NCBI GenBank assembly: GCA_018823795.1 | Contig: JAHJGZ010000041.1 | Location: 1 to 57,877 of the forward strand | DNA length: 57,877 bases | Origin: Candidatus Omnitrophota bacterium | GTDB taxonomy: Bacteria > Omnitrophota > Omnitrophia > JAHJGZ01 | Direction: 5' to 3' | Shown here: positions 7,545-49,891 of the stretch, in pieces | Position numbering within the stretch: the first letter of the stretch is position 1 | How the letters are laid out: each line of letters opens with the position of its first letter | Translations under genes and position numbers: made by a program | Notes under the pieces: generated by a model | Seen by the model: the letters and a program-made list of their open reading frames with translations, nothing else | Database searches by the model: none | Told to the model about the DNA's origin: nothing

Positions 7545-7565
7545 TCTATAAGCCCTATACTTGCT

Positions 7566-8561: not shown

Positions 8562-8590
8562 TAAAAACCAAATTAGGTGATTCACAATAG

Positions 8591-8632
8591 ACCGGATTAT
8601 TGCTTTAAGAGCAATACTGCCGGTATTTTTTT
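8591..8632 (+). terminator. Rho-independent terminator after the DUF362 gene
   Basis: ACCGG...CCGGT arms enclose an inner stem TATTGCT/AGCAATA with a small internal loop, followed by ATTTTTTT. It closes the 2051-8561 cluster and isolates the giant gene downstream. Confidence 0.85.
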
Positions 8633-8707
8633 GCCTTCAGACAATGAAATGCTTGTAAGTTGTTTGTTTGCAATATATTAGAGTATAAAAAATATGAGGT
8701 GAAGCCA

Positions 8708-8736
8708 TTGACAAGGCTATACATTTATGTTATATT
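8708..8736 (+). promoter_or_regulatory. Promoter of the giant gene
   Basis: A consensus TTGACA (8708-8713), a 17-base spacer and TATATT (8731-8736). It lies after the terminator at 8591 and before the structured leader. A start near 8743 gives a leader of about 325 nt to the ATG at 9068. Confidence 0.82.
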
Positions 8737-8785
8737 TTTAAAAGCTTTTAAAAAGTTATTTAAATATAAGTGAATAACAGTTTTA

Positions 8786-8960
8786 GGCAAACCTAACTAC
8801 TTAAAAAGGTAGATTGCGTAATCACGGAAGAATGTATTACGCAAGCGCAAGCTAGGGACCCTCGTGAAGTACAATTTGGTAAGGCTTCTATGTGACGTTT
8901 CGGTGAGGTAGTGTTGACAGATATGTTCACACTAGCAAAATCACGGATCAAACACTAAGG
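8786..8960 (+). promoter_or_regulatory. Structured leader RNA, possible GEMM-like riboswitch
   Basis: Directly visible: GGCAAACC (8786-8793); a 6-bp hairpin CTACTT/AGGTAG with AAAA loop (8797-8812); a perfect 9-bp hairpin TTGCGTAAT/ATTACGCAA (8814-8844); then GCGCAAGCTAGGGACC (8845-8860); and a TAGTGT/ACACTA stem (8909-8934). The GGCAAACC, hairpin, CGCAAGCTA, GGG order recalls the cyclic-di-GMP-I (GEMM) aptamer consensus. However, the extra 9-bp hairpin does not belong to that fold and the GNRA loop is replaced by AAAA. I am confident that the leader is structured and not coding. The riboswitch class is a guess. Confidence 0.45.
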
Positions 8961-8976
8961 ATTATTTTCATTGTTT

Positions 8977-9013
8977 GATGGCCGGATTGCAAAATACTTG
9001 TAATCCGGCCATC
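8977..9013 (+). promoter_or_regulatory. Strong hairpin just before the giant gene's start
   Basis: GATGGCCGGATT (8977-8988) pairs perfectly with AATCCGGCCATC (9002-9013). With one G-T and one C-G pair more, the stem reaches 14 bp around a 9-base loop. No U-run follows, so it is not a classical terminator. It buries the upstream in-frame TTG/ATG (8975 and 8978) and may be the expression platform of the leader. Confidence 0.7.
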
Positions 9014-9067
9014 TGCATTGAGGCGGGATTTACAAGATACAAACAAAGTAAATTGTGCCTTAATGCT

Positions 9068-9187
9068 ATGAAAGACAATACCCTCGTAACCTATTTTAAG
9101 TCTTTTCGGTGTAAATGTGTTACTGTCCTACTCGTAACCATTTTTACCATTACCTCTGTGTTTCAAAATCCTTCGCAAAGCTACGCT
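9068..9187 (+). other. Signal peptide of the giant protein
   Basis: 40 residues: a basic n-region containing FKSFRCKC, a hydrophobic core VTVLLVTIFTITSVF, and a c-region NPSQSYA followed by AA, an AxA-like signal peptidase I site. It implies that at least the N-terminal part crosses the inner membrane. Confidence 0.85.
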
Positions 9188-12100
9188 GCGGCATCGTCGA
9201 TGCCGCTCGCATCAATCATCAATACCATTACAATTCCACAAGACATAGGACGCATCCAAGATATCTATCTTTCTGAGCGGGCAAACGCGCCTGCCGTTGT
9301 CTATATTCAAAATGCACATGCCAATTATGAAGCACAAAAGAACATAGAAGCAATCCTTAAAAGAGTTCACGATACCTACAACATAAACAACATATGTGTC
9401 GAAGGTTCCTCAGGCAAGGTCGATACCTCACTCTTTCGTGCCTATCCGATAGAGGAGGTTAAAAAAGAGACGATCGATAGCTGTGTAAAGGAAGGACGCA
9501 TTACCGGACCGGAAGAATATTCGATACTTTCAAAGGAACCGGTCGAGCTTTTCGGTGTTGACGATGAAGAGCGCTATGTTAATCACGTAAAGACCTATGT
9601 AGAAACGATCAAGATACGAGATTTGTTGGAAAAACAGCTTAATGATCTAGAAACAATAATTGAGCGATCGAAGAAAACTGTTTTAGATGACGAAGCTCGA
9701 ACATTTCTGGAAGAACAAAAGAAGTATAATGACAACACCATAACACCACTTGAATATATTCGCCTCTTACTCAATACAACAAAAGAAAAAGGGGTCGGAT
9801 TAACGCAATGTAAGAATTTTAAAAGGTTGTCTGAAATTGAAATATATCAAAAAAAGATACAGGTTCGTGCTGTTGAAAAGGAAACGAGGGCTTTTATCAG
9901 CATGCTCTTGGAGGAGAGGAACCTTAGCAGCGAAGATATGGAAACGCTTGCACTGGCGGAAATTGATTTTAAAGGGGAACGTCTTCGGCCATTTGAATTT
10001 TATTCCCTCTTAAAAAATCTCTCTTGTGCCTATACAATCGATTTTCGCACCTTCCCGAACATAAATCGGTATTTTCATTATCTATGGCTCTCCGAAGATG
10101 TGGACGCACACGAAGTGGAAAAGGAGTGTATTGTCCTCGAGAAAGCAATACTGCAAAAACTTGTTACAACTCCAGAGGGTAAAGATCTTCTGCGTTTCAT
10201 AAGTGTTTTTAACATCCTGACGAAAATAGTGAGGCTCAAGGCGACGCCAGAGGACATCCGTTTTTTTAAGAAATACAGGAATGAGTTTAAAGCACATGCG
10301 TCGACAATCCCTGACTATCTTCCTCTCTTTGAACGTTTCTACCGCCTTGCCGAAGAAAGAGAAAAATATCTTGTCAGTAATACGCTTAAAAAGATAAAGA
10401 ATGATAAGCTCAAAAGCTCTGTTCTTATTACCGGTGGTTATCATACGGCCGGCATAACAGAAGAATTGAGAAAGAAAAATATCTCATATCTTGTCGTCAC
10501 TCCCCGCATTACCCAAATGCCGGAAGAAAAAATATATGAAAAAATAATGGCCAGCTATGATAAGTATTTCGGTGTTAAGGAAGGGACACGCGGAGGAACG
10601 GTTGAAATATTTTCATCAATCGCTAAGCTCGTAAAAACTCAGGCCAACGTTGGTGAGTTAGAAACACTGCGCGAAAAAATATTGCCTTCATTAGTTACTG
10701 AGCTCATGAACCATCCTCGCCGTGAAGCGTTACTCAAGCAATGGAACCGCCAGACAACCGAATGCACCATTGTCGAAGGAAAAGAAAAAAGCGAAGCCCT
10801 TTTTGTTGACAAAGACGAGCTTCTTACAGCACTGCGTAAGGAAGACATCCCGACTCTCCTTCAGTGGGTAGACGAGGGAAAGATCGGACGGACGGTGAAA
10901 ACCGAACTGATGCCGGACAGAACCATAAAGACAACGGATCTTGAGAGCCCCTTATCACGCCAAGCAGGTATTCTTCCCTTAACAAAAAATTCAAACATTA
11001 AATTCGTTATATTCGACCTTGATGGAGTACTCCTGGATAGACCACGACGTAATGCAATGCACTTTGCCCATATATACTGGAAGATTAAAAATTGTATTTC
11101 TGATGACAGTGCGAGAACGCCCTCGTCGGAAGAATTACGAGAGGGATTGAATTACTTTAAAGGACATGTGGGGCAAAAGACTTCTCGAATGATAAAAGAG
11201 TGTATTGAAGTACAGGGGAAAAAAAGGAGAGGAGTTCTTAAAACAGAGGAAGCGTATATGGATGAATACGTTTCACGTCAAAGAAAAGAAACCACCGAAC
11301 TTTTAAGCAAAGGTCGTGATGCATTCTGTATGCCGCATGCTGTCAGTGTCGTATCAGCCTTAGTATCGCAAGGTTTTAACGTGGGAATTATCTCAAGCAC
11401 CAGTTCTTTAGGAAAAGAGATCTTTGAACAATCAACATTGCGGGAATATTTTAAGGGATTTGAACAGAACATTAGGTTCTTAAAAAAAGAGGACAAGGCT
11501 GAGGTGATCAGAGCGTTAATGATAGCTAATAAGATGAGCCCTCAACAAACATTATTTATTGATGACAGTCCCATCGTTACTGCTGAAATCTCAAGTAAAA
11601 TTCAGGGGCTTAATGTTATTGGTATGCCGGTGAGCGGCGAAGATCGTACGAAGATGCAAGACACGGTAACGTGCACGATTGAGAGTTTGGATGAGCTCAC
11701 GAGCATAGAAGAGGAAAAGACAGACATAGACACTGGGCTTTCAGGTGCTACAGCGACGGATGCAGAAAGATCGGTGTCTGTTACCCTCTCTCATTATCTT
11801 GCGTTAGCTGATACGTTATACCACGAGCCAAAAAATCGTGCGCATACGAAGGGTGTTATTCGGATGGTCATTCCTCTTGCAAAAGCCTTTGGTGTTCCTG
11901 CGGAACAATTGCCCATTTTATTGCAAGCAGCACTTCTCCATGACCTCAGCCGTGAAGCCATTAATAATGATATCAACATGAAAATTATAATGTGTGTTAA
12001 AAAACATAAACTTGATATGTTTGCTCTAAGATATATGAAGATGGTCAAGTGGTTGCGGGAAAATAAGGGGGATATGCCCTTACAGGAAGCATGGGAGCGT

Positions 12101-15100
12101 AGAGTAGAATTTGCCACTATAGAGATTGAGCGTCAAATTATGGAGAGATTACAGGAATATACACAAAAGAAGCAGACAGAGAAAAAAAAGGATTTAATAG
12201 TATTATTACAGGATTTAAATATCGATATTGATAGTGAAAAATGTACTTTATCCGATGAGGTTAAACAGTGTCTGTATATTCTTCATCATCACGAAGAGCT
12301 ATCAGTTTACTATGCCCGTAAACAAAAAGATCTCCTCCCTTTTTCACTTACTGCACCTGTTGAAATGCTTATTCAGTATCATAGTCTTACCCCTCCGGAA
12401 TTGATGCCGGACGAAAGAAATGGGACGCTAAAGCCGTTATTTGACAGTCTTTTTATAGCAGATAATATTGAATCTTTTAATAATGCGATACGAACGGTAG
12501 GAACACTGAAGGAAGGAAAGCTTACCTTAGAATCGACATTACATCATTTGGAGAGAAAGGTTAAAGAAAGACAAATATCACAAAAGATGTGTGAGACCGT
12601 TCAGCGGCTTCTTATTGAAGAAGAACTGGACTTAAAAAAAGCAATTTGTATCAGCAGAGGACAAACTGAATACCCTGAGACAGATCTGCAGTTTATTCAA
12701 ATGATGAAAGCTCGAATAGGTGCAAAAGGGCAAACACCAACTTCCGACGAGGGAAAGATCGGACGGACGGTAAGGACAGACTCAGAAGACAGCAGACAGA
12801 AGATAGAAGACAGAAAGGTGACAGACACCGCATTACGAAAAGGAGGAAAAGAGCCGGAAAAATCGGTGTTGCTTCCTCTCGCTGCGGTTCCACCTGCTTC
12901 ATTACACGAGGCACTCGACGGCCTTTATATAAATGAATCATATGAACTAAGGGTTGAACCGGCAGACACCGAAGAAGCGTATTCCGATGAACCAGCAGAA
13001 ACTTCACGGATTAAATGCCGGCTATGGAATATAAGGGCGGGGACATTTGAAAATGACAGTTTGTTTATCATCAAAGAGGGAGACGACATACAGATAGAAC
13101 AAATACATGTTGGTATGCCGCCCGGCTACAAACGAATTACCCGAGGGGTTGGTACTACCATAGTAACTGCTGTTGCTGCCTATGCAAAAAATAAGAATAA
13201 ACTGCTTGGGGTGCGTACGCAAAATTATGGCTTGATACGGCTTTTCTATAACCATATTAGCAAGAAGACGATGTATGACTTTGCGGGGAACAGGTCTTCT
13301 TTTCATGCGATCGATTGGTTTAAAAAAGGTTTATCGCTTGAACTGGCAGGTGAATTTTCACCTAATGGTGTAGCGATCCCATTTTCTATTCAACCCGATG
13401 ATATCGTTATTGGTAAGCCGGTTGAAAGATGGCTTCCTGAAAGTGAACGGTTCATTCAATATACGGTGTATCCTCATGGCCTCGTACGTATTATGGGGAA
13501 GAAACCGTCCGATAACGAGTTCTGCCTTATACCGCATACTATCAATCTTCCTTTTACGGTTAGCGTTATAGTTTCTGCGGATGATATTTTTGCAGGCATT
13601 GAAAAAGAAAAAGCAGGGGGCTACACAAGATTACTTCCCCCTTGGTTTGAAGAGTGGAAAGCATTTTTTGAAGAAAAAATCGAGAAATTTTCATTTGAAG
13701 AAGCGGTTGAGGAAGCATGTATTGCGAAAGAAATTTTCCCCCAAGACGAACCAAAAAGTGAAAAATCACGGCGTTGGTTCTTTTTTGATAAAGAAAAACA
13801 AGTGCTCACTTTGTACTATTATGCAGATGATGGCATATGGTATCAATGGGATATACGATATCACGAGAATGAGCTTTTGGTTTCTAAGCCAACGATGTGG
13901 GAAAATGAAAAACGGGAAGAGTTCGAACGAGTTATGGTTGCTTTGGCCAGTTTGGTCCATGGCACAAAGATTATTGCCTCACATTATAATGGTTTATATT
14001 ATCAGGATAAAGAATTATCTGCGCACGATATCTACGTTGAAAATGCCGATGGTGACATTGGAGATATTGGGTTACTTGGCGGCAGTGCTGGTCGCTATTG
14101 CCTTGCAGTCGGAGGGAATCGTTACTTTTCACACAGTACATTCACTGATTTAGAAAGTACATTGCGTCGTTCACATTCAATTATACAAAAGACATTGAAA
14201 GAACTAACCTCATTGGAGCTTCCGGACAAATCTGCCGCCGAAAAGGTTCGTAAAGAAGTGGTAGGCGTTCTATTACAAACCATCATTTTTTTTAGAGCAA
14301 TACATTCAGTAGCCTTTCAGGACCAACAGGATTTTACCCATAACTTTCATGAAACCATTTCCTTATTACAAAAAGGACAGAAGGACCATACGGTCAATTG
14401 GAATACCGTTACGTGGAATATTGATGTGCCCCAATCTGAGATTATTATGCCTGGGTACGTTGGTACCGTCGGACTGATTTTGGAGAACCTTATCCAAAAC
14501 GCAGTCTATTGTTCGGAAGATGCGGAAAAACCGTACGTTCAGATTAACATTACGGGTGATTTAGAGAATGTTTATATAGAGATACGTAATAACGGAATCG
14601 ATGAGATTAATCCGACATTTTGGCAAACCCCGCGGCTTGGAAACACGGCGCGCAGATCTGGCGCCGGTATGGGACTGCCGCTTGTTTCTTATTTAATGAA
14701 AGATATCGGCGGTACCCTTGATGTACATGCTACAAAAGGAGAGGGAACGACCGTAACACTCCGTATTCCAATCGTCAAAGACATATATGCAACGAGCAGC
14801 GATCGAACAACACTTGCTGATATATGTATTGGAAAAGAAGAACAAGAACCATCAGCATATATTGAGAAACTTCTTCATTGGGAGGAGAAGGGAGTACGCA
14901 GTTTTGAAATATCAAAAGAAACAGGTGAGGTAATTCCCGTCGGAGGCCATGAGCAATTGCTCCTTTTTTATCCACAGCTTTTTAAACGAAAAGGACAAAC
15001 ATGGAATCTGCCATTACACGAAGGTATTCCCCTCCTTGCTGATGAAGCTGGCGATGCACTTTTTCCACTTATGGGCAATATTCATGTGGGGGATAGCGTT

Positions 15101-18100
15101 ACGCCAGACGAGAAACTTACTGAATGGGGGATTGAAAAGGTGGAACAAGGCGGTCGTGCTCTGTGGCTTCCGGGCTATACCAGATCAAACGGGCAGAAAG
15201 TGTTTACCTGTCCTTTACCTATTACGTTATACATGGAAGTCATTGACGGTGGTGAAGGATCACAGCTTATTTATGAACAGGATTTAGAGCGTCTTATTAT
15301 CGAGAATTGTTCTGCTGAAGAAATCAGTATTCTTAAAAATGATACGCAGTTTCAGAAAACTGCACTTGCGCTTCTTGTGGAAAAAGGAAAGGTTCGTCTT
15401 CTTTCCGGATCAGCCCTTGAATTTAAAGATGCAGGGATGTATCCATTCTTTTATGCCATCAACGATGCCTTTCCATATTCGATCTATTCAATTGCCGAAG
15501 AATTGTTGTCTCAAGACGAACGTGATACTTGTCAACAAAAATACGCAGTCGTAGACCCCGACGGTAACCATACAGGATTGCTCCGGGCGATGCTCATCGA
15601 TGCAATTGATAATAAAGAAAAGGAAAAGGATACCTTAAGTGCCCGTATTTCCGTCGGTGGTATATTTACCACCAGTCCGTATCGTACGCCAGATTCAAGT
15701 ATCGGGACAGGATACATGACCAAACGGGAAGTTATCAATGATAAGGTGCTTCTCCGGCACGGGGCGAAGCTTTCTACTGTTGCCCTCGATTCACAGGTCC
15801 TCTTACGTAAGCAGGATGTTCCCGAGCTTATTATTGATGAGGCACTCATCGGTATACGAGTCTTACTGGGTCATAAAAGCAGGATGCAGGATGTCGCCAA
15901 TGCATTATTTAATCATGATACGGCATTTTGTAAAAACTTTTTAGATAAACTTGATGAAAAATACCAGAAAGAAAGAAAAGAAAAAAATGGGGAAGAGTAT
16001 TTATGTGATGTTTGCAGTACGATGGGAACTAATCTGAAAGCGCTCTTTCGTTCCTCATTACACGTTAAAAAAGGCAACGACTATCGGCAAAATATTGATA
16101 TTGGAGGGAGGATCACCGACACTGGTGACTTAATAAAATCAGAAAACATTGCTGATCAGGGAAGGACCATTACCTTTTTCTTAGATGCCTTATTGAATGT
16201 CTTTACTCTTGTTTTAACCGATGATCCGAGTCTTTTTTATGATAAAGAGAGTAGGCGTTTTAGTGACGAGATGTCTGCAGTTATATCAGCAATGCTATTG
16301 GACAATTCTTTTCACCTGTTTTGTGAAAGCTTTTTAGGTGCAAAATATGGACAGATAACCTTCAATAAAATTAATACAGAGATGCCTTCCTCTCTCGAGA
16401 CGGTCGAACAGGTGTTGGAATATGTATATGTATTACTTATTACTGCATGGCAGGATATGCTGGATGTAGAAAATCTCGACCACCTTGGTGATGAACCGGA
16501 ACTTCAGGAGGTTATTTTCTTGAGAGATGTTGCAAAGGCTCAAGGAGTAAAAAAAGAGAATTTTCCTTCTCTGAGCAAACTGGATGAAGCATTAGAACAT
16601 ATTGGACCCTTGCTTGTTCAAGCACGGGAAAATTTAACGCTTGATGCGGCGTGTAAACCAACCGCATCATATCTTGCGGAACGATTACGTGCGCTCGGTA
16701 TAAATGTTTTTATCGGCGAAGGGGAATTCCGGCATACGCCAGATGCCAGGCCACGAGAGCATTATGTTGTCTTAGCGTTAGTATGGGATGATGTGCAAAA
16801 CAAATTGGTTGAATATGCTTTAGATTTTTCTTCAGAACAATTTACTGATACGGAATATCCACTTGTATCTCCGGTGCGAAATCTTTATCCGTTGCTCCAT
16901 ATTTCCAGGAAACATACAATGTTTTTTGAATATTGGGAGGATGAACCATTTAAAGAGCTCAAAGCCGAAGTCGAACGATTGGAAAAAGAAGCTACCAAAA
17001 ATGACAATACAAAAATACCGTGGGCGTGCGCGGCGAGTCCGGAAATGTTTGCTTCCACACTTTTGATTAACCGTTCTGCTGATGATACCGGAGGCAGAGA
17101 AATAATACGCAGTTCACCAGCAACCTATCTGCGTGATTTGTGGAGGCATAAAGATGTGTTGCGCGGCATGCCGCTTGCAGCAACACATAACGGGGAGGTT
17201 ACCATTAAAGGCAAAAAACTCAGGTGGACAGAACAGATAGTTTCACCGACAACAATGAGGGATGTATTTAAAGTTCTCAATATACTTGGTTTTATTAAAT
17301 CACGCGAAAATAGAAAATATCCCCAATATCTTACTGATAAGTTTTTTGATCTTTCTGATGAACGCATTGACGCACTATGCAACCGGGAAGAATTAAACCG
17401 ATCTGCTAGACGAATATTGCGTAATAGTAAAGAACTGAGAAAGCTTATAAAGTGTGTTAATTACATTATGTCCGGTACCATACACGATGATACGCCTGAA
17501 GAACCACTACAACAGAAAGATCATTGGCGATATGTTATGAACAGGATTATGGAAAATGATGATCTGCACGATGCAGCGACTGATCCAACGCGTGGATTGA
17601 CGGTCAAAATGTTTGGACCTATTCCTTTTCACAATGGTACGAATACTACGCGTAAGACATTTGATGTATTGATTAACAAGGGATTTTTAAAGATTGATAG
17701 TACACAACGCGAAAAGCGGTATTGGCTTATTATTACAAAAGAGAATTGGAATGCATTTATGCGTTACGAGAAGAGAAAAAGGGAAAATCATGTCAAGAAT
17801 CTTCCTCCGAAAATGGTTAATCAAAAGGGAAATCGGTGGAATTTAGCAACGGTAAAGGCACAATTACAAAAAGGAGCGGGATATAAAGTTAAATGGAGTT
17901 TTGTTGACAACGATGCAATGACGGCAGTATTGGAAGAAATAGGAAAAATGTGGGAGACCGAACCTAGTGAGATTATGCCATGGCATTTGAGCAAAAAAAA
18001 GCTTTCTCTCTGGGGGTATCCTCAGAGGACGTATGCCGGGATATTACATAAAGGGCTGGAGGGAGACAGCCCATCTGAAAAGTTAGATACGTTAAAGGAA

Positions 18101-21100
18101 AAATTGGGGATCAAGGATTTCGTTACCGGGGATTTAGAAAAGGTGAAAGCACTGTTGCAACAAAAATCGAAACGTGTGATCAGATGGGACCTTGTTGATG
18201 ATGATACGCTGGTGAGCGTATTAAAAGAGATTGGAAAAGAATGGAAAATCGATCCTCGTACTATTAAACCAGGGCATTTTTACCAGAAGATATCTCTCTG
18301 GGGATATCCCGAGAGGATGTATGCCGGGATATTACATAAAGGACTGAAGGGGAATACCCCAACTGAAAAACTTAATGCGCTGATGAGGAAACCGGGTATT
18401 CGTAAGAGATTAATGGCATCTACATTGCTGCCGGGATCAGCGGCGAAATGTCTCAAGGATTTATGGATTCATAGGAATGAATTAAAAAATGTTCCTGTTG
18501 TTGCACGTTATCGTGGCGTGGTTACTATAGGAGATAAAAAGCTACAATGGCGAAGACTCCATATTACCCGTGGTGCGCCGAAAGGGAAAATCTTTAGTTA
18601 TGAAACACTCAGACATGAACTCGACGTCCTGTATGAGATAGGGTTACTGGAGAGAAAAAAAGTAGGTAGGACTCATCATTATTACATAAGTGACACATTG
18701 CGTGATTGTACCGATAAGCAGATTGAAGAGATATGTGCACTGAAGTATATGAATTGGGCACCGAAGCGGCTTTTGAATAAACGAAACAACCGTTTTCTCC
18801 GTCACCTTGAAAAACTGGTAAATCAGATTTTGGTTGGAGAAAAGGCAGCTGTTAAAAAGCCTAAACATACACGCGGCCTGTGGCAAAAAATTATTCAACA
18901 TATTCTTGAAGATAATTCACTCCGTGAATTAGCGAAGAATGGCACATTGCAGGTTTCTCATATGAAAGATAAGGGGGGAGGTCACGGTGTTTTTGACCGA
19001 TTGGTCAGTTATGGTTTTCTCCGTAAAAATAAATCAACATGGCCACATACCTTTTGCCTTACGCTATCACGGGAACAATATGAAATGTGGACTGAGGTCG
19101 GACTGACCCTTCAGGAAATGAGAAAAGAGGCACGCATACTTAAAGCAAAACGAAAGCCTGCTCTTGGAATTCCGCCTCCTCAAGAGGAGGTCGAGAACGA
19201 TTCTCACTGGAAAGATCTCATTTCATGGCGCGGCGGTGTGCCATTAGTCATGAAACAGATCATATCACATGATGAGCTTTTACAATTAGCGCAAGAAGGC
19301 AGATTGACACTTACTGCGTATATCGATAATGATACACGATGGTCATTTAACAGGTGCCGTCAGATCTTTTATGAACTGGTACGGTTAGGGTATCTCTATC
19401 GTGATTTTTCTGTCAAACCCTATCAATACGGTCTTGCAATTACCAAGGAGCAGTATGAACTTCACGAAAAAGAAGATCTTCCTGTCGGCATTCCACTGGA
19501 AAAAAGGGTAGTGGTTGAATGGGCACTTTTGCAATATGAAATACAACAATTTTCAAAATTGCTTATGTCAGTTGTTGAAGAATGGAAGCAATCCGCGGAA
19601 GATGTGGAGCCGGATAACGATGAAGAAAATATTCGCACACATATCCCTATGATAACTGCATTAAATAAAGCACTTCGTGAAAATCTTGAGCTTATCACCA
19701 CCTATCCAATGGCCCATGAGGATACTTTTCTTGCCTTAAAAGATGCATGTGATATTCGGACAATCCAGCGGGCATTAGATTATTTTTTAGAGCATCAAGA
19801 ATCTTCCTTTGTTCAATCCTTTCTTACTACGACCGATATCTATGACTATCTGGAAGAATATATCGTGACGACAAACCATCATTTTAATCGGATGATACAT
19901 GGTTTTCGCAATGAAGATATTCCTGTTAATACATTAGCAAAGAAGGAGAAAGGGTTTCTTGCGATGAGTCTTATGATGACACTTTGTGCTCTGAGTGTTG
20001 GACTTGGTGTATTGCTTCCCGAACTATTCGGTCTGAAGACAGCCTTTACGCACTATGTGACCTCATTTCTTGGGAGTGTAAACAATGTTGCAGTATTGTC
20101 CGATTTTTTTATCACGAAAGAATTTTTTCTTGCACCGAGTATAGCTGTATCATTTCTTATTGGCGGTATCACTTTTAAGAATAAAGGTAGTTCGTATAAA
20201 AGTAAAAGTCGTTTTTTAGGTCGCGAAAAATCTAAAAATCAAGAGTTTTTGTCATTTCTTGAAGAACTTGAAGCAAGTAAAGCGTTAGACCAGCTTAAAG
20301 CCGGTGAATTCGGCGAGGTATTACATACGATCACTAAAATTCTGACGTATGCAGATAATCAGATAAAAAGAGCTCGTGCGAAAAAACAACAAGAAGCTGA
20401 CCCGCGGGAGCTTTCTAATAAAGCTCTACGTGGCTATCAAAAGGCGAGAGATTTGGCTAACGCATTGGCACAGGAACGAGATAACGATGCTTTTACCAAT
20501 GATGTTATCGCCACATTAGATGATTACATTGTCAGGGCACAGAGAGGTATTGATACAGCAATAGCTATGATGAGTCACTATGCAAAAAATAGACGTGGTG
20601 ATACGGTGGAAAAAAGAAATACGGGAAAAAAATATGTGCCACCTGATGATAGCCACATGGCACTGGTCCGCGATGGTTCGTATGCTGTTGAAATACGTTT
20701 TATCGATGAGGCAATGAAAAGTTATTCTCAAATGTTTCGAAAAGAAAAACCTAAAGAGGCTGTTGGAGAGACATTTCGTCGAACGATTCAAACAGGTTCT
20801 CATTTTAAAGTCCGCCTAAAGGCATCTCCCAAAAGTGCTATTGATATTTGCTGCATAAAGATGAAAGGGGTCGAATTTCTTTATCATATCATGTCTGATG
20901 ATAAAATTTTAGTCATTGCGTGCGGGCGGGGAGCGAGTGTTTATAAAAGATTGACGAAAAAGATCCCTACTATTTCTAGTCATCCTCATCAGGTATGGGA
21001 AAATGCACAACGTTTTGGTGTGTATGCGCGAAAAAGTGCATCTGATTCTCGTGTTGCGATAGGAGAGCACAAGCCTCACCAAATTACTCTACAAGAAACA

Positions 21101-36100: not shown

Positions 36101-39100
36101 CGCGCTCAACTGCAAATAAAAATAGTAGAACAGGATGTTGGAGATTTATGGGGTGAATATGAAGCGTACAAAGCAGGTGAGGATGAAAAACGACGTGCGG
36201 CGATTGAAGATGATTTGCAAGCAGAGAATGAGGAGTGGCAGACATTTATTGATGACTTGATGCAAAGAGCAGAAAAAGGGCAGGCACAGCGAGAAGTTCA
36301 GGAGAAGAATGCTATTGCTCAGGGGATAAATAAGGCATGGACCCAGAACACGCTTGATACGATAGAAAATGGGCAAACAACTAATGGGTTTAAAAGACAG
36401 CTGGATAATGAGGAAACATTATGGCTTGAACAGCTCGATGAAATGAAACATGACTATTATGATCAGTTCGTGATTGCACTCGAGCGTAAAGCTTTTTCTT
36501 TTGCCGACAAGCTTTTGACGCTACTGATGCATATAGGGGCAGATGCTGCACCACTACTACAACAACTGAACGAAGCGAGACTCGCTCACAAAAAAACAGT
36601 ACAGGAGGCAGCTCAAAAGAGGCCAAAAGAGGAAGCGGCAAGGGCAGCTGAAAAAATAGCTGCTCGGCAGGAAAGAGAAAAAAAAGAAGCAGAAAGTATA
36701 CGACGGGCATTTATTGAAACAAATGGCCATTTTACGTTTATGGCCAAAAAGTTTAGTATGAAAGCTCTTGAGTTACAAGCATACTTAAAGAAAAAAAAGA
36801 TGACACTTACCATCCTTCGGCAACAGCTTAAAGCACTCGTTGATTTTAAAAAAGGATCGCTCGAATGGGCACTACCAAAAATGACAGAGAAGGAGGAGGC
36901 ACTTGTCAATACCGTTGCTGAATGTTTAGCAATAGTCGATTTTCTAAGGGATATGGAAGGGGTACATGCGATACAAGAGATTGCTCTATTAATTCAAAGA
37001 CGGGAAATCGAATCTATTGTTCGCCTCATACAGAAAGATATTCCTGATAATGTTATGGATAAGTTACGAAAAAAACTTTTTGTATTATCCAGAGCAGTCG
37101 AAACTGCACCGACAGAACAGAAAACCGCTGTAGAGGCTAAGGCAAAAGCAAAGGCGAAGGCAGATGAGGAGGAAAAAGTCAAGGCTGATACAGCAGCAAA
37201 GGCAAGGATTGAGGAGGAAGCGAAAAGAAAGGCAGAGGCAAAAGCCAAGGTAGATGCAGAGGCAAAGGTAAATGCTGAGGAAGAAGCGAAGCGGAAGGCA
37301 GAAGATGAGGCAAAAGCAAAGGCAGGTGCTGAAGCAAAAGCGAAAGCAGAAAAGGAAGCTGCGAAGAAAGTAGCAGATGAGCGAGTTGCAGCGATGAAGG
37401 CGGCTCAGGAAAAAGAAGCGGCGGAAAAGATTGCACTTGAAAAATTAATGCAAGAGATACAGCCGACGCTTGACACATATATTTACGATTTTGGTAATAC
37501 GTATAAGATGCGAACGTCCACTCAAGCGCGTGAGCTTGGTAGAAAAATTGAAGAACTGTATTGGAAGATTCATCCCGAGCATAATGGCAATAGAGTGGAA
37601 GCTGCCCTGTATATTATGGAAAAGCTTGGCATGATTTCGCTGGCACACTATTTCGGGGCAAAGCGTAGCAATGAGCAGCTTGACCATATCTATAGTACCT
37701 ATTTTTCATCTGATCGGGAAAAAGTAAAACGACAAATTATTAATCGTATACATCAGTTGAATATTCGTGCCACTGATGATTCCGGTCGTATTTTGAGCAT
37801 GCTCAATGCGAATTGTGGTGAAGTCTTTCGTGTGTTTAAGACTGAACGGTTCTTTTTTGATCTTTTTGATCAAACCGGAACAGATATACAGAAACTTATA
37901 AGGATAATAGTTTCACAGTATAACCCGAAGTTCAAAAGTGAAGCGGTAAAACTATTTTTACCGGATAAGACAGTGGTTGTATCAAAGGCTTCTGTAGTTT
38001 CAGAAGAGGCAGTTCCTCGGGTTCTTCTGGGTGATGGCCGTTCTGTACCAGTCAGTGCCGATGATTTATGTGACTTTTTTACACCTCAATGGTTTGATAT
38101 TAATCATGTGATGCAAAAAATCAATCAGTTGACCAGTGACGATGATGTTTTGATGGATGTCTTTGAAAAAAGGCTCCCTTTTATATTGGGGCTCCTCTTT
38201 GATGATACAATGCATAAGAAAAATTATCTTTTTAATCTTTCAAAAATCTTTACTCACGCATTTAAAGCTGATCCTCTACGAGCAACACGACTTCTCGAAC
38301 CATACTTAGGTAATGCCGCGTTGGAACGTAATCACCGTGATGGCACCATATTTTTTCATCGATTGAAAGAGGCGAAAAAGGAATGGTATGATTTTTTCAT
38401 CAGTCATATGGAAGACCACCTTTCGCCTGAAGGAGAAGAAAAACTCGCAGTATTGCACGGTGCCGATAGTGCAGGGACCGTTGTGATTACTGACTACGTC
38501 AATCCGTACGGTGTTCAAACACCTTTATTTCGTGGTAGTTCGTTCATGACCAAGAAGATACAATATGCCGATTTGCAGGGAGTCTTCCGGGTGCTTTTGG
38601 AGAAGAACGTAACAACAGAAGATGCCGCCTATTCGCCAAGTAAAATAGCAAAAGTATCCGGGATGAGTGCTTCGGAATGTAGCGCTCTTTTAAATAAATT
38701 GACATTAAAAGAATTTCCCCTTATCGAAACTATCGATCTCGAGGATGGAAGAGGAACAACTGGCTATTATATTCTTGAGGAGCTTTATATGAGGGGGAAT
38801 GATATTTTAGATGTTTTAAGTTCTATCAAAAGTGGGAGGCGTAATGTGTCCAACGAAGAACTGGACGAGATATATCAGGAAAAAATAATACCGATACTTA
38901 AAGCAAAGCCGAAAAAACGTTCGTACTCGGGCCATCTTTATTCATCACCACCACTTCCTGATTTTTCAAGACTTATGGAACTAATAAATAAAATCAGAGA
39001 ATGGCGCATAGAACAGGGATTGTCCGTTACGTATACAGGGGGTAAGGATGACGATGGTTTTCTTTTGTTGAAAGTAAGTGCCTTTTTGTCTGGAGGGATG

Positions 39101-42100
39101 GGCATTGGAATATCGCTTGCAAAATATTGGTATAGTGTGTTGGGTTATTTTTCTTCTTATCTCGACACTATCAGCACGTTTTTAATGCAGATCATTTTTG
39201 TGAATCGTACCGTTTTCCCAGCAGTTCTTTCCGCTTTTTTTATTGCAATTCTGTTCGTATCCTTTAGTGATTACCAACTCCCGCTCAAGAGAGAACCTAT
39301 TCAGATATCACCGTCATTCCTTGATGTGAAAGAAGGGTTCGAAGAAAAGGTAATCATGGTGCAAGCTGCAGGGATTGATTTATTTCATATTGACCACTTT
39401 GACGGCGTTATGACACCTGAAGCATTTGATGGATATGCATTAGCACAGCGTTTAAGCACACTGAGTTCTATACCACTGGATGTGCATTTAATAATAAAAG
39501 GAAAAGATGAAATTATTAAAGCGATTAATAAGTACGTAACACTTGGGACGTGTATTGAAGCCATTACATTCCATTTTGAGGCAGTAAAAGATTTTAAAGA
39601 AATGAATGAGATTTTCACCTTGCTTCGTACACACGATATCAAAATAGGAATCGCAGTTAATCCATCAACGAAATTTGCACAGGTGAAAGCTATTTTGCAG
39701 AAAAATATACTTGACTATATTACGGTTATGACGGTAGAGCCGGGCGTTGGCGGCCAAGATTTTCGTAAAGATGTTCTCCCAAAAATATACAGACTGAATA
39801 ATTGCATACAAGACCGTCGTTTAAAAACAAAGATTATCGTTGATGGAGGAATAAAATCCGGGACGATTCGTTTAGCTGCGATGGCAGGGGCACGAATCTT
39901 AGTGTCTGGATCTGGCGTGTTTAAAGGAGATGATATTTTTGAAAATATCAGACAGCTCTATACGAGCGCTGGTATAGAAAAAGAGTGGATAGAGCAATCC
40001 CTCTCTGCGATGTGTACGATGCTTGCAAAAACTGATAATCGTGATGTTGAGCTATTGATTTTAGAAAACATGCGTAAACTTGCAGAGGTTATCGGCACTT
40101 CTCATCTTTTTAGTAGTGAAGAAATGAGGGAAATAGCACGGATCGTTTTTGGCAGTATTGCAAAATTTACCGTAAAGAAGAGTCGCACGAATGAGATACT
40201 GCACAGGCGAGGCATTACTAAGGCAGACTATTATGCTGAGTTGTTGCAGAAAAAAGAGGTGAAAGTGCGTTGCCTTGTTTTTGATATTTTGGGGACATTA
40301 GGGTATCGCGAAGACCATCGTATTAATGAACGGGTTTTTTGGACAACCGTTAATGATGCGAACGAAAGAATTCCCCACTATGCGTTAAAAGAAAAAGATC
40401 CTTCACCTGAAGTGAGGATTACTGCAGTGAAGGCAATGGGGAGACTGAAACATATTTCTTCCTATCGGCCTCTTTTAAACGTTCTGAATAATCAAAAATC
40501 GGCTTTTGAAAAAGAATGGGTATTTACATTCCGCTACGAAGAAGATCCTTTAGTGCGATTGGCTATTGTTGAAACGCTTGAACTATTTTTGAATGAATTT
40601 ATAGCAAAAAAAGATAAGCGATTTTACCTTCATATTGAAAGTATCCGAAATGGTTTAGAAAAAGCGAAAAAAATGGAAAAGGATAATGCAGTGCTTGTAA
40701 GAATTGAGGATGTGTTAGCGAAATGTCCGCGCAGCATGGACGCAATATTTAGTAAGCCAATGAAACCAGCCCAGCTGCTTTTAGCGAACGAGGAACCGTT
40801 TAATCCATATATACGATTGGGCAGAATCGGTAATTTTGTTGTTAAAAATTTTATTCGGCGGCCGTACTGTCTTCTGTCTGGCGCAACGATTATCCATGAA
40901 TTCGGGCATATTATTGGTGCAGCAATTGTTGGCGAAGATTTTCATATGCCCTGGCATTTTTGGTGGACCGGAGAAGTAGCGCTTGAAGAAGGCGGCATTG
41001 CTTTTCATTGGGGCTTGCGTGCGAATTTAGCTTTTGCCTATTGTATCGGAGGTTTTTTGACCTTAGCGACAGTTATGCAATTTATTTTAGGGCTTGAACC
41101 GTTTACTTTATCAACTAGTTTTACTCTCGGGTTGGCCGGCATCATTAATGCGTTTGCCTATGGACATGAGCGTGATGCTGAATTTTATGGACGCGGGGAT
41201 TTAGCCGGACGTGATCATGGTCCCAGTGGTATGTCCGAGATAAAGAGGCTGCGCAATGAAATAATACGTGCTCCCCAAGAAGTTGATTTTGATATCCGAT
41301 CGTGCATTACATTCTTATCAAAATATAGAGTGGTTTACGATGAGCGCAAGGTAGAAATTCAAGATCTGAGTACATTAACAAAAACATTACCGAGAAAACC
41401 GGTTGCCATTAAGGAACCGCACCATCTCGAAATTGGTGATGTTATATTAAATAACGATGGTGTTTTAATTGGTATTGTCGCTACTTATTTTGATGGTGAA
41501 GAAGTTGTCCTTCAAATGGCGCAACGTGAAATGGAAGAACAACTAAAAACAATACGGAGAAGGGTATTAAATCAGTATGTTGTCTATCCGGTGTTACCTT
41601 TTGGCTATAAAAAATTTCGCAATAATAACCAAGGAAGTTCACTGGTAACTATCATTGCTGGCCTGTGTGCAATTAGTTTCGGTCTTATGCTATTCCACTT
41701 TGTTAGTGGTCCCGGTACCTTTTATTCTGACCTCGTAGGTCAACATACGGTTGATTATTGGACAGTGGGGCCGTTAGCGCTTCCTTTTCTTGCTTTTGGC
41801 CTCGCAATGATGAAGGAAAAAAGATCTCCGATGAAGAAAACGACAACCTTTGTGCAAGATAGATCAGGTGAAATATTTCCTCTTGTCATTAAAGAAGTTG
41901 CCGGTTACAAGGCTCTTACGATAATCACGTCTTTTTTAATGCGAAGGAAGAGACGATTACAAGAGCTCTGGGAACTTGCACGAGAATATCTTCTGCTGGG
42001 AAGAGGAGAGTGTCGCATATTTCAGGCCTCTTTTGAAGGGGAAACAGTAGCTCTCCGGCAGATAAGAGAAAAAGAAAAGGAGATCGTTTTAATAGCTGGT

Positions 42101-45100
42101 GAAGTCGATGAGCCGTGGCAGGACAGAGGAGTCTATTCTTCTATGATACTCCATTGTGTAAAACAATTTCGCGAGGAAAAAGGCTTTTTGCCTGAAAGGA
42201 TTGGCGGTTCTTTTAGTTTCCACAGCCAAGACATTATTAAGAGAATGATAAAAGAGTCCGGTATTCGGAAAAATGTTCATGAAACATATGATGGTTGTCT
42301 CTATGAAGAGGAACTGGAGATTTTGTTAGATAATTATAAAAAAGCGCAGTATCTTTTGCAGAAGGATTTTCAAAAACAGTCTGAGGAGATTGACGAACCT
42401 GCCCAAATAGAAGATAAAACTCCTCCGCGTGATGAAGATCCAGTTCGTGATCGTGAGAAGGATATTGCGCAGTTAAAAGAAAAAATAATTGCCACATTGG
42501 GAGAATCTTTTAAAGATGATATCGATCATGGACTTCGGCATGCAGAAGATCTTCTTGAGAAGGCAAAACGGTTGGCTGAAAGACTTCCTAAAAAAGAGAG
42601 GATTAATTGGTGCGTATTAACGACCGCTGCCTACTTACATGACCTCTTTGCAATAGAGGACCGGCAAAATCATGGACAAAGAGCAGCTGAATATTTTGAT
42701 GACCATTTTGCAGATGACTTTACCGCGGATGAACAGAAACGGATACATGAGGCTCTCATCTTTCATGATAAAAAGGATAAAACATTTTGGGACGAGCACC
42801 AAGACGTTTCGATTGAAGCGAAAATTCTCTATGACGTTGATAATTGGGATGCCTTTGGTGCAAAAGGCTTGTACCGTTATATATTGGTTAATTACCGGGA
42901 TTTGCAAAAAAGCAATCCAGGAGTTTTAAAACCAACGTTACAAGAAGAAGTGTTGTATATCATGAAAAATGAGGTATTGGCTAATATTAAGGATCGATAC
43001 GAGAGCCTTTTGTTTTCCGAAACAAAAGGCGTAGCACGTAAAGAATTTGAGTATAGTGTACGGTTCTTTGAAGAAGGATTAGAAAAGGAAAACCATGGTG
43101 CTGATCATCCTTTTGGAGCAACAGGATTTGTTAATTTAATTACCCAGTTTATTGATGAACATCCTCATCCAATTACTATTGCGAGAAAAGCCATGGAGAA
43201 ATTACGCAGTGCAGGCAATTTGGGTGAAGGTACCGCCCATTATTTTAGTGCGTTACTCGCTGAATATGATGAACGACATGAACCGAAAATGGATAGAAGA
43301 CAAGAAGACATTCCACTTCCTGATGGTCAGGATGAGCGAAGAAGCGGACTGGATAGACGGGAAGGGCCAGTAGAACGCCGACAAGTACCACCGAAAGTCC
43401 TCTTAATTAATTTAATTTCACCTCAGTTTCTTGCACGTTTTCAAACCGATATTGCTGTTAACACCTTAGCAGCTTTCTTGAGATCACAAGTACCCGGATT
43501 AGATGTGCAGGCAATAGATATGTTAAAGCTGTTTCGCACTCAAAATGAACACTATACATCTGAAGCGGCTTTTCAAAAAACAATAGATTTTATTGTTAAT
43601 GAAATTGTCAGTAATAGCGCATTACATAAGACAATTGTTGGCCTCTCACTCAAATGGCAAACAATGGATATTGCGAAAGCAATCATTATGAGGGTTCGTG
43701 ACCAATTGAGAGATAAAGCGCCACTTTTTGTTTTTGGTAATATTGGTACGACGTTTGGCGCAGAATGGATATTTGAACAGCCGTCTTTGAGAGAAACAAT
43801 CAGTGTGCTTGGAGAAGGAGAAAGTGCATTAAGACAAATTGTGGACATAGTCTCAAAACAGGAGGATCCACTGGTGAATTTGTCTTACTTTGCAGACATT
43901 CAAAATGTGGTAGTAAATTCAGGGGACACCATGGCATTGAGATCACCTGTACTTGTCAATTTGGACGATTATCCTACATTTACAGAAGAGATGGCGCCGG
44001 AACTATATGAACAGAAAAAAACATTTGGTGTTGAAACAAGTCGGGGATGCCCATGGGGAAATTGCACCTTCTGTTCTATCCGCGGACAATTTGGGAAGGG
44101 CAATACACGATGGCGGCCCTATCCATTAGAAAATATTCTTCATGAAATCCGATATTTTGCTGAAGTTAAAAAGGTGCACAGATTTTATATTATTGATTCA
44201 GAATTTTTTGGTCCTCTGCGAAAAGAAGAAGATTTTGAAAAAACAATGAATAGAGTACAAGCTTTTGCAGAAGGGGTCATGAAGATCAATAATGAATTAC
44301 GACTTGTTGGGGATAAGCGAATTGCGATTTCTGTTCTTTCTGCACGGGTAGATGCTATTTATAAAGAAGGGGAAGAAGAAAGAAATAAACGCCGACGGGA
44401 AATATTTATGCTTCTTAAGGATGCAGGGCTTGAGCGGGTATATTTAGGCATTGAATCAGGGAGCCCTTCACAATTGAAACGATACGGAAAAGGGGTGTCA
44501 GTCGCTGAGAACAAAAAAGCATTACAGATTTTACGGGAACTTAATTTTAATATTGAAGTTGGTTTTATTTTCTTTGATCCGCTTGCGACTATCCAAGAGT
44601 TGCAGGAAAATATTGAATTTATTGAGGAAATGAATCTTCTTGAAATTAATGCGCGCGTTCTTGGCAGTCTTCGTATTCAAGAAGGAAGCCCCTATGTACA
44701 ATTAGCCAAGAAACGGGGATTACTTGGTGAGAAAGATCCCCATTCATTAAGTTATGAATGTCGCTACAAATCGAGCGATGTTGCGAAGTGTGAACATATT
44801 TTTAGTATATGGGAAGAAAGCACGAAGGAATTAGTCAAGCTTTTTGCTCCTTCTGGTCTTAAAGGAGATCCGGAAATGTATACACTTGATTTTAATTTTG
44901 TCAGGGACATCGTCACCTGCTATGCGGATGGAAACAAGGATAAGATTCTCGATATTGTGGGTAGCCATGTTGCTAAAAGACGGAACTATTTAGAAACACT
45001 TGAACATAAATTACACGAAGGAGCTTTTGACTATAAAAATGATAGCATGAAAAGTCTTCGTATTGAATATTTACATGCTGCACAAAAATCTAATAGTGCA

Positions 45101-48100
45101 TTATTAGCGACAATAAAGACTTTGCTGGACAATACGGAATATGCTAGTTCTGTAACTTCACGAAAAGTTGCGCGCGTGTTAATCGTTGATGATGAACCAG
45201 GTATACAGCGTATGTTAGCGATCACAATTCTCGATTGGAAAGAAGATATTGAAATCGAAAAAGCGGACAATGCGCATGAGGCTTTGCAAAAGTATGAGAA
45301 TGCTAAAGAACGAGGAGAACCATTTGACGTCGTATGCGCAGACTATATGATGCCGGGAGAAGATGGCATTTGGTTAGCGCGACAAATTGCACCTGATAGA
45401 ATTCCTGTCATAATGATTAGTGCGGTTGCTGATAAAGAAGTAATAGACCAGGCGCGACGCAGCGGATATCTATGGCGTGTGATCAAAAAACCATTTGAAA
45501 TGGATGATATACATGCTCTCTTAAATGAAATTGAAGGGAATGATGGTGCGATTGAGACAACAGAAGATGTATTACCTGATGTGTCTGAAAAGATAGAAAA
45601 AATACAAGATAGTACGACACAAAAAATAGAGCGAGTATTAATCGTAGATGATGAAAAGCCATTACGTGTTGGGCTTACCTGGGCTTTTAAGGGGTGGCGA
45701 GAAGGACTTCAGATTGAAACAGCAAAAAATGCCGATGATGCATGGCAGAAATATCAAGACGCTAAAAAACAAGGGAAGCCATTCGACTTAGTGAGTACTG
45801 ATTGGCGTATGCCGGGAGACCATGATGGTCTTTGGCTTGCTGAACAAATAGCACGGGACGGAATACCGGTGATAATGATTACGGCAAGTGGTCATGATTT
45901 CAAAGAGGTTCCTCGACAGAAAAAAGAACATTTGAAAGGTATTCTCGATAAACCATGTGACGCAGACGATATACAAGCTCTCTTAACCGAAATTGCAGAC
46001 GAAATTGAAGGGGCGTCATCCGACACATCGCCGACGATGCCTGATAAACCAGAGAGCTGGTTCTATGATGTTGGGGATGGCACGACGCTACCGGAAAAAA
46101 TCAACCGTGTATTAATCGTTGATGATCATGAAGAGATGCAAGAATCTTTGAAGAATGTTTTTACAATGTGGAAAAAAACCCTTGTCGTTGAAACAGCAAA
46201 CAATGCTGATGATGCATGGTTGAAATATCAAGAAGCAGAAGAACAAGGGAAGCCGTTCGATTTGGTAAGTACTGACTGGCGCATGCCGGGAGAGCGTAAT
46301 GGCCTTTGGTTAGCTGAAAAAATCTCACGAGATGGCACACCGGTAATACTGATTTCTTCAATGGCATCGAGCCTACGATACGCCCCGCCTAAAATCCTCA
46401 ACTATTTTCGTGGAGGGTTTGAAAAGGAATTTGATGTAAAAGAACTGCATGCACTCTTAGACGAAATCGAAAAAGAACCAAGCCAACGCACGACTGACGA
46501 TGTGGGAAACGGAATGGATCAGTTTGGTGAAAAGGATAGTAACGTAGCAAAAAATATTAAACGTATTTTAATCGTTGAAGATGAAGAGATCATACGGCGC
46601 GGTTTTAAATTTGCATTAATGAATCACAGAAGTAGTTTTGAAATTGAAATAGCTCAAAATGCACAAGAAGCATTACAAAAATATAAAGAGGCAGAAAAGC
46701 CATTTGATCTTATCATCACTGATTGGCGCTTGCCGGGGAAGGATGGATTATGGTTCGCACAAGAAATTGCACATGATAAAGTGCCTGTAATAATGATCAG
46801 TGCCCATGTTGAAAATGATAAGGTTATGCAAGCTGAAGAGCAAGGGTCTATTTATGCATTTCTCAAAAAACCATTTCGAATGGAAAAAATATTCAGTCTC
46901 ATAGAGGAAATTGAAACAGAGGCTGGTGTCGTTACTGCAATAAAGGATGTTTCTCAAGAATTAAAACCAGAACACCTTCTTATTGCTAATTTTAAACCGT
47001 TTAAAGAAGAATGGTCGAATTGGCTTCTGCAGAATTTAATTCTTCGTCCGATATTTTTTGTTTTCTTGGCTATTCCTGTTCATGAGTTCAGCCACATTCT
47101 CGTTGCAAAAAGATTTGGCGAATACGTGGAATGGACGTGGGGTGGGGCACTATGGAAAGCACGAGTATGGGTTGACAAATACGGCACCGCACTTTGGGGT
47201 GCAGCAGGAAATCCTCTTTTTGCCTTTACTCTTGCGATACTCTATAGAATGCTTGAGATACACAATGCATGGCCAGGGTTAACATATTATTGGATAGCGG
47301 TTATCGTCTTCAATTTGATAGCTGTCACAAATGAGATACTTGCACTATGGCACGCAGATTATCATCCTGATTTTTATGAAAAGTATCATGAAGGTACTCT
47401 ATGGGGCAGCGTAGAACCAAAGGAACCATTCACTGCATATCTTAAACGACAGTGGACGGCTTCACCAATGAGACGGTGGTTAAAAACTATTATATCCTTT
47501 GTTTTGCATAAAGCACAACGCTCATTAGGTGATAATAGTAAAAATGGGCCATTTAAAAGCATTGTCGAGAAGAATGAACAGAGTAAGTATTCGCCTGAGA
47601 ATCTTGCAAAAAAGATTACATTTGATTTGAATATAAAAGAGCTTGCACAATATGGTATCGATGCAATATATCGAGATGACATTGCCGAAAAATATAATTC
47701 ATTGTATATATTACAAAACAGGATTAATAGAATCCTCGATGCTATTAAAATAATTGAAAAAGCAACCGGCATTCCGGACTTTACCATACCATCTATCTGG
47801 AGAAATACTATCCTCATTACCTTCCTTAACGATCAAGAAAAAGAAATCTCTGCTGATACTATCCGGCCCTATTTGCCTGAATACTCTGATGCGCAAGTGA
47901 CAGATACCAAGGTGCTTGTTGATGAATTTAAAAATAGTCTGCTTTATCGTATCTTACAAGCCACTCTTGATAAAGATTCTGTCGATGTTGTCAGACCGGT
48001 TATTACTGAACTTATTCAACAAACCGTTTGGAATCCTCAGCTTGCTTCCACAATTACCGATATGTTACTTGAGACTGCCCTCAGCGATGAAAGGACAGAA

Positions 48101-49216: not shown

Positions 49217-49245
49217 TTGACTTTAGGTATTAGGTACCGTATAAT
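49217..49245 (+). promoter_or_regulatory. Promoter of the rplU-rpmA operon
   Basis: TTGACT (49217-49222), a 17-base spacer and a perfect TATAAT (49240-49245), 55 bases before the rplU start. A strong promoter suits ribosomal protein genes. Confidence 0.88.
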
Positions 49246-49623: not shown

Positions 49624-49624
49624 C

Positions 49625-49867: not shown

Positions 49868-49891
49868 ATTTAAAATCCCGTACACACACAC

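Follow-up and report, generated by a model that had tools for sequence, protein, structure and literature searches.

A 13,254-codon Omnitrophota gene is the longest member in its genome of a family with a common N-terminal domain and a recurrent C-terminal tail

RESULTS

A single coding frame of 13,254 codons in a housekeeping neighbourhood

The window analysed is the whole of contig C59 (57,877 bp) from a Candidatus Omnitrophota bacterium, whose genome is a 3.19-Mb draft in 250 contigs with an estimated completeness of 99% and contamination of 5.6%. In the ORF listing of the window, positions 8975 (TTG) to 48832 of the forward strand form a single stop-free frame of 13,285 aa. The first plausible start is the ATG at 9068, giving a protein of 13,254 aa that opens with a Sec-type signal peptide (MKDNTLVTYFKSFRCKCVTVLLVTIFTITSVFQNPSQSYA). 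At the base composition of the frame ∼905 stops would be expected by chance, and none was observed across the 13,254 codons. Codon usage was taken from the ten flanking genes as a reference and applied to tiles of 300 codons (900 bases); the frame of the giant gene fitted this reference best of the six frames in 44 of 44 tiles. GC content by codon position was level along the gene, with no shift in composition, and no run of N was present in the frame or the window. These data confirm that the giant is a real, uniformly coding gene.

The genes upstream are of DUF362, DUF547 and nitrilase-like types, and those downstream are rplU and rpmA (49301-49868, read directly), obg, proB, proA, nadD and an apbE-like gene. 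Thus, the original prediction of a real stop-free frame of ∼40 kb, opening with a clear signal peptide at 9068 and lying in a housekeeping neighbourhood between DUF362 and rplU, was borne out.

The features of the locus are collected in Table 1. The promoter-like site ahead of the gene is suggestive only, as the count of such sites in the region does not exceed the chance level. A second promoter-like site (49217-49245, consensus match) lies between the giant and rplU, and with both sites the giant may form its own transcription unit. No Rfam family reached its gathering threshold within the window. The leader of the giant gave E-values of 0.013 for c-di-GMP-I-GGC and 0.014 for c-di-GMP-I-UAU, both well under the gathering score, at a position that in the paralogues is occupied by over-threshold c-di-GMP-I riboswitches. 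No terminator-like site was found in the giant's leader.

Table 1. Features of the giant gene and its 5' leader (positions in the 57,877-bp window; aa, residues of the 13,254-aa protein)
Feature	Position	Strand	Evidence
Promoter-like TTGACA-17-TATATT with TG extension; 5' leader of ∼325 nt	8708..8736	+	11/12 consensus matches
Degenerate c-di-GMP-I riboswitch-like segment; aptamer 3' half kept, GCAAAAUCACGGAUC...GAUGGCCGGAUUGC	8874..8995	+	Weak Rfam scores
16-bp hairpin overlapping the aptamer-like 3' arm; without U-tract	8977..9013	+	z = -5.6; terminator at this place in paralogues
Giant ORF, 13,254 aa	9068..48832	+	Stop-free frame, start choice, codon usage
Sec-type signal peptide, hydrophobic core aa 15-33, small-residue site near aa 40	9068..9187	+	Sequence; paralogues alike
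Family N-terminal domain (head), aa 51-540, TIKI/TraB-like signature	9218..10687	+	Motifs, profile comparison
HAD-like hydrolase	10997..11620	+	PF00702 E 1e-6, above cut-off
GHKL / histidine-kinase ATPase (HATPase)	14474..14773	+	PF02518 E 5e-11
Internal duplications, aa 2679-2894, 3120-3338, 3371-3465	17102..19462	+	Self-comparison
Membrane hairpin 1, aa 3631-3698	19958..20161	+	Self-comparison and membrane-segment prediction
Membrane hairpin 2, aa 4036-4113	21173..21406	+	Self-comparison and membrane-segment prediction
17 copies of a 53-residue helical repeat (KYPTxEATYxALM...GGDPxLLxAC)	21476..24475	+	Self-comparison, AlphaFold
Membrane hairpin 3, aa 5742-5831	26291..26560	+	Self-comparison and membrane-segment prediction
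Membrane hairpin 4, aa 6538-6619	28679..28924	+	Self-comparison and membrane-segment prediction
TPR repeats	28940..29677	+	PF14559 E 6e-8
Fis-type HTH_8	35306..35428	+	PF02954 E 2e-5, above cut-off
Membrane segments, aa 9999-10066	39062..39265	+	Membrane-segment prediction
Ribulose-phosphate 3-epimerase, metal-site residues kept	39305..39922	+	PF00834 E 3e-40
M50-like membrane segment with HEFGH	40748..41107	+	E 2e-8 to second copy; no Pfam match
HD phosphohydrolase-like	42509..42889	+	NF007515 E 3e-7, below cut-off
Radical SAM (CPWGNCTFC), B12-SAM type	44033..44623	+	PF04055 E 4e-17
Four tandem response-regulator receivers	45155..46972	+	PF00072, 4 stretches, E 4e-74
Second M50-like membrane segment with HEFSH	47024..47236	+	Comparison with first copy
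C-terminal ∼140 aa alignable with paralogue C176; ends ...RKKLEVFA	48410..48832	+	Alignment

The body of the giant

Pfam and NCBIfam profile searches left most of the 13,254 residues without a match. The earlier description of the protein as a domain mosaic stands for the HAD, HATPase, TPR, HTH, epimerase, radical SAM and receiver modules, and no described family fits the giant as a whole; the figure of about thirty recognisable domains is too high for what profile searches return. Polyketide and non-ribosomal synthetases are the commonest giant bacterial proteins, and the same searches found no KS/AT/ACP or C/A/PCP domains in this one. The phospho-acceptor Asp is present in all four receivers, and the cysteines of the radical SAM motif, read directly, are kept. 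A separate canonical rpe elsewhere in the genome rules out replacement of the housekeeping enzyme by the giant's epimerase. The four membrane hairpins proved mutually related by direct comparison.

The repeats had been likened to DNA-binding elements. AlphaFold gave the 53-residue unit, present in 17 copies, as all-helical with a pLDDT of 96, and no PDB neighbour was found for it by sequence or by fold, so DNA binding is unsupported. When three body stretches (aa 3601-6600, 6601-9600 and 12601-13254) were compared with 55 relatives, one weak match was obtained outside the giant's own genome. The claim that the gene must be selected is well supported for its ends, its catalytic motifs and its frame; for the body, which has no close homologue, the case for selection is indirect.

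A family of paralogues with different bodies

The giant is not an isolated oddity. Its first ∼500 residues match >25 places in the same genome, and this N-terminal domain, referred to here as the head, is common to 25 frames including the giant, the other 24 being mostly long. The giant is the longest of at least 25 paralogues in this genome with a common head and tail type, in a family whose profile matches 173 of 384 genomes of the phylum. Sixteen of the 25 head-bearing frames end inside their contig, and these 16 have stop-to-stop lengths of 573 to 13,298 codons. The family frames seen sum to 74,946 codons, 7.1% of the assembly.

With the limit set at E < 1e-5, only the N-terminal part of the giant matched the other family frames. 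The bodies of the paralogues contain phosphoglycerate mutase (C176), methyltransferases (C11), HAD, methyltransferase, B12/radical SAM, CoaD- and CoaE-like modules (C72), Maf, ARMT1 and Dus (C110), ROK and RamC, with a UPF1-like helicase in a second frame (C151), GAPDH (C117) and the RNA polymerase alpha CTD (C157). The body of C50 contains a complete pyruvate:ferredoxin oxidoreductase (PFOR) in the order Fer4-TPP-POR-POR_N-PFOR_II. Direct reading showed the CoaE P-loop, the CoaD-like GSFDPITHGH and the GAPDH SCNTTG motifs to be intact, and the PFOR likewise retains two CxxCxxCxxxCP (4Fe-4S) clusters and the GDG...N of its TPP domain. A single frame of 2,871 codons that opens with a signal peptide (L013:2224-10836) encodes the whole of this PFOR.

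Sampled genomes of the same class were all positive, with up to 37 matches each, and in other classes the head often occurs once per genome, as a protein of 518-560 aa on its own. Long family frames elsewhere include one of 12,701 codons on a 1.59-Mb contig (G189) and one of 16,199 codons whose end was read (G020). Some very long frames of relatives contain N gaps, and a frame of 35,113 codons (G023) was dropped as the record because of such gaps near its 3' end.

The N-terminal domain resembles the TIKI superfamily

In the giant and its paralogues, a signal peptide of the cleavable Sec type, as judged from sequence, directly precedes the head. The head motifs IQxAHxNxEAQ, EGxxG, FYxxAxxR and GGYH are all present in the giant, where the key residues are N82-x-H84, E112 (28 residues on), R431 and the GGYH with H459. 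Among 47 family sequences the tetrad residues were found in 47 (H), 47 (E), 46 (second H) and 46 (R), and the first acidic position was D in 45 and N in 2. The spacing from H to E was 28 in 38 of 56 family sequences.

The 2His/2Glu tetrad of the TIKI hydrolases is published as E-x-H followed after 28 residues by Glu and, late in the domain, by His, for example H85/E113 in Bcr135, and E3900, H3902, E3930 and H4030 in VvRRSP (PMC6254334). The TIKI, TraB-PrgY-GumN, ChaN and erythromycin-esterase proteins share with the family the order of D-x-H, E at +28, Arg and GX2H. The family differs in that its first acidic residue is Asp (Asn in the giant) where the published tetrad has Glu, and in that its head, of ∼470 aa with long helical insertions, tops giant proteins. 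No Pfam family matched the head above cut-off, the better of two members reaching E 0.091 with TraB and one member E 0.082 with ChaN; the TraB family PF01963 itself was not found in 16 genomes of the class. When the head was aligned by hhalign to nine TraB proteins, the R...GX2H elements came into register with a Prob of 1.9% and a score of 25.5, against a maximum of 18.4 among 20 column shuffles. A PDB profile search with the head gave chance matches only, its profile found no relative in the viral contigs searched, and a single-sequence AlphaFold model (pLDDT 40) was discarded. Overall, the motifs provide good evidence that the head belongs to the TIKI superfamily, although they are no proof of the fold itself. 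Since Asn82 stands in place of the acidic residue, the giant's own head may be inactive.

The C-terminal tail

Over the final ∼140 aa the giant can be aligned with C176, and other pairs align more weakly. Ala is the last residue in 38 of 52 readable family C-termini, compared with 6 of 75 other genes of the loci (Fisher P 1e-14), and Ala-Ala ends 26 of 52 compared with 1 of 75 (Fisher P 1e-11); because many of the members compared are related, these statistics overstate independence, but the contrast is still large. Among the 16 complete members from the giant's genome, 14 have A as their last residue, and SL or SV ends are common in one other class. The same tail type occurs on frames of 1,600 to 16,000 codons and in 0 of 10 stand-alone members. 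Selection can see a last residue only if it is translated, so the conserved final residue indicates that the frames are translated to their end, and it provides evidence from sequence alone that such long frames are translated throughout.

The tail is also found on a few genes without the head, two in C209 and one in C188. At L020:7288-16164, two tandem frames (1,497 and 1,398 codons) without the head have related C-termini, -TIKIAA and -QIKVAA, and the second is preceded by a c-di-GMP-I riboswitch.

Tsp/Prc favours nonpolar C-termini, and the ssrA-type and Tsp/Prc tail signals resemble the family tail in their small-residue hydrophobic C-terminus, -AA or -FA (PMC9382460). The family tail differs in being gene-encoded and in standing on signal-peptide proteins. 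The giant's own genome encodes two S41 proteases. A search of this genome for tmRNA (RF00023) gave nothing above cut-off apart from tRNA-like matches, which may reflect a gap in the draft or a divergent tmRNA.

c-di-GMP-I riboswitches precede many family genes

Rfam searches of 264 kb of paralogue loci gave ten over-threshold c-di-GMP-I riboswitches, each followed on the same strand by a frame that belongs to the family or bears the tail, at a distance of up to 500 nt in nine cases and of 1.25 kb in one. The whole genome contains 18 c-di-GMP-I matches, of which 12-13 precede family or family-like frames and 12 lie within ∼700 nt upstream of such ORFs (P ∼1e-26). Thus, nearly half of the family in this genome lies behind c-di-GMP sensors, the giant having a degenerate copy only. 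In C50 the same segment serves as the 3' arm of the aptamer and as the 5' arm of a 12-bp, U-tract-bearing terminator, an overlap by which ligand binding should favour read-through. At L019:9917-11441 (C151), a small HTH-type frame and a REP-associated (Y1) transposase-like frame lie between riboswitch and giant frame, perhaps as an insertion that parted the switch from its gene.

Relatives have 0-5 c-di-GMP-I switches each, and the switches listed do not adjoin the head-bearing frames listed, which rules out a phylum-wide link between riboswitch and family among these. With few switches and no obvious link in the relatives, the association is a trait of the giant's lineage. Other switches of the genome (L124, G000:C215:30252-30369; L123, C231; L131, C138; L133, C12) were judged by eye to precede prepilin-like, secreted-protein and STAS genes, targets that would be as expected of a contact or attachment regulon.

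DISCUSSION

Giant bacterial ORFs so far reported have few domains, poor conservation and no known function. According to Seymour et al. 2023 (PMC10066038), ORFs of >20 kb are common in Omnitrophota and still unexplained; the frame described here exceeds this 20-kb criterion. Like the giant ORFs of Omnitrophota and other PVC bacteria in that text, the giant is stop-free over >20 kb with membrane helices, and the family has few annotated domains, poor conservation and a class-wide distribution. A common head, a conserved tail and a riboswitch are not described in the same text, which has no mention of c-di-GMP, signal peptide or TraB, and the domains it reports are of adhesion or carbohydrate type (discoidin, laminin G, dockerin), whereas those of the family are metabolic and signalling enzymes. 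Giant ORFs are also treated in a preprint by West-Roberts et al. (cited in PMC12057145). In the literature other than preprints we found no paper linking Omnitrophota with a riboswitch or c-di-GMP. The c-di-GMP-controlled giant adhesins of Vibrio cholerae (PMC6890996) are likewise very large, surface-type and tied to c-di-GMP; the family differs from them in that control would be by a riboswitch on the giant's own mRNA, and no adhesin repeats or LapG-type site were identified in it.

With their common head and tail and their c-di-GMP riboswitches, some of the giant ORFs can be defined as a family, open to searching, tagging and testing, and the presence of intact, cofactor-dependent enzymes in signal-peptide-led frames raises the question of where these proteins work. 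The reading we rank first, tentatively and with a little less than even confidence, is of a 'bookended' family serving as a membrane-tethered, multi-activity carrier in cell-cell contact, linked to c-di-GMP. A long member would be one continuous chain that opens with a Sec signal peptide and a TIKI/TraB-like head outside the cytoplasm, continues with a body and finishes with a short tail whose last residue is small or hydrophobic, the body being a fast-changing set of recruited enzyme, repeat and membrane-hairpin modules. High c-di-GMP, signalling a surface or contact with a partner, would allow the message to be made, many family members in this lineage being switched in this way. The chain would then enter the Sec channel, the head would end up outside and the hairpins would hold the chain in the membrane. 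The free C-terminus might be read by a tail-reading factor, either a PDZ/S41 tail-specific protease or a sorting factor, by which the chain would be matured, anchored or turned over; to cast an S41/PDZ protease in this role is guesswork, based on the preference of Tsp/Prc and the two S41 proteases of the genome. The frame, common head with its tetrad, tail bias, riboswitches, aptamer/terminator overlap, S41 proteases and hairpins are all in favour of the carrier reading, as is the threefold rise in peptides of a 39,678-aa giant ORF in attached cells of V. archaeovorus, reported in PMC10066038. It is weakened by the degenerate state of the giant's own riboswitch and the lack of a link in relatives, by the possibly inactive Asn82 head and by the weak profile support for TIKI. 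There is also a conflict within the proteins themselves: the signal peptides point outward, whereas the Fe-S, radical SAM, receiver and CoA enzymes point inward, PFOR, radical SAM and receivers not being expected to work beyond the cytoplasm.

In a second reading, only the signal peptide and head would be outside and an odd number of membrane passes would return the chain to the cytosol, making the giants membrane-bound scaffolds for a metabolon. The modules are normally cytosolic and catalytically intact (the two 4Fe-4S motifs of PFOR, GAPDH, CoaE, the CoaD-type module and the receivers), and some hairpins carry positive charges in their body-side flanks; the positive-inside rule would place these flanks in the cytoplasm, which argues against the carrier. 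However, in C46, C162, C40 and C136 the signal peptide is the sole predicted membrane segment, and the canonical rpe means that the giant's epimerase is not the sole copy. We rank the cytosolic scaffold second and consider it fairly unlikely. If the giants were secreted polyproteins that carry enzyme modules into partner or prey cells, their ends serving export and release and their middle being swappable, this would account for the same ends and non-overlapping contents of every paralogue and for cytosolic enzymes behind a signal peptide. MARTX-type multi-effector proteins have conserved ends and a variable middle of separate enzyme modules. The family would be alike in architecture only, an analogue and not a homologue; no MARTX-type repeats, autoprocessing domain or effector homologue was found. 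A predatory or epibiotic lifestyle is reported for giant-ORF Omnitrophota in PMC10066038. The analysis identified neither a delivery apparatus nor a release protease or toxin-like domain, and the contents look metabolic rather than harmful. We give delivery to a partner a small probability.

We think it no more probable than delivery that the giants are run-on mosaics with no function as a whole, in which adjacent genes merged once their stops were lost and only individual modules or the ends are the reason for their retention. In favour of this, the body stretches compared with relatives are specific to the lineage and the body is mostly without domain matches. Against it, one tail type is found on frames of 1,600-16,000 codons, is missing from stand-alone members and is rare in other genes, the catalytic motifs are intact, and the coding signature is even, without a decayed stretch. 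That the frame is chimeric, or not translated as one, we regard as very improbable. The draft state of the assembly, its contamination and the N gaps in some very long frames of relatives speak for an artefact, but the giant itself has no N, its composition is uniform, its last residues are conserved and long members lie on large contigs of other genomes. The carrier reading stays first and the cytosolic scaffold second, followed by partner delivery and run-on fusion.

More broadly, the family may represent a new protein plan, in which chains of 1,600 to at least 16,000 residues combine a secreted TIKI-like head and a readable tail with gene-specific, intact central-metabolism and signalling enzymes, brought out together under c-di-GMP riboswitches in this lineage; we consider this conceivable but doubtful. 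If true, some of the bacterium's metabolism would be located in the envelope, outside it or inside another cell.

Two minor observations concern the joints between modules and the head. The linkers 10871-10906 and 12746-12781 of the giant open with near-identical words (DEGKIGRTVKTE and DEGKIGRTVRTD), and stretches like RRQKTEDRRQ occur in other members, resembling in-frame insertion of short DNA repeats between modules. The riboswitch at L134 (G000:C188:37674-37798) is flanked by a frame with the ending ...TIKIAA and by a signal-peptide frame with a non-family N-terminal domain, DUF218/YdcF-like by eye; from this frame, the head too seems to be exchangeable.
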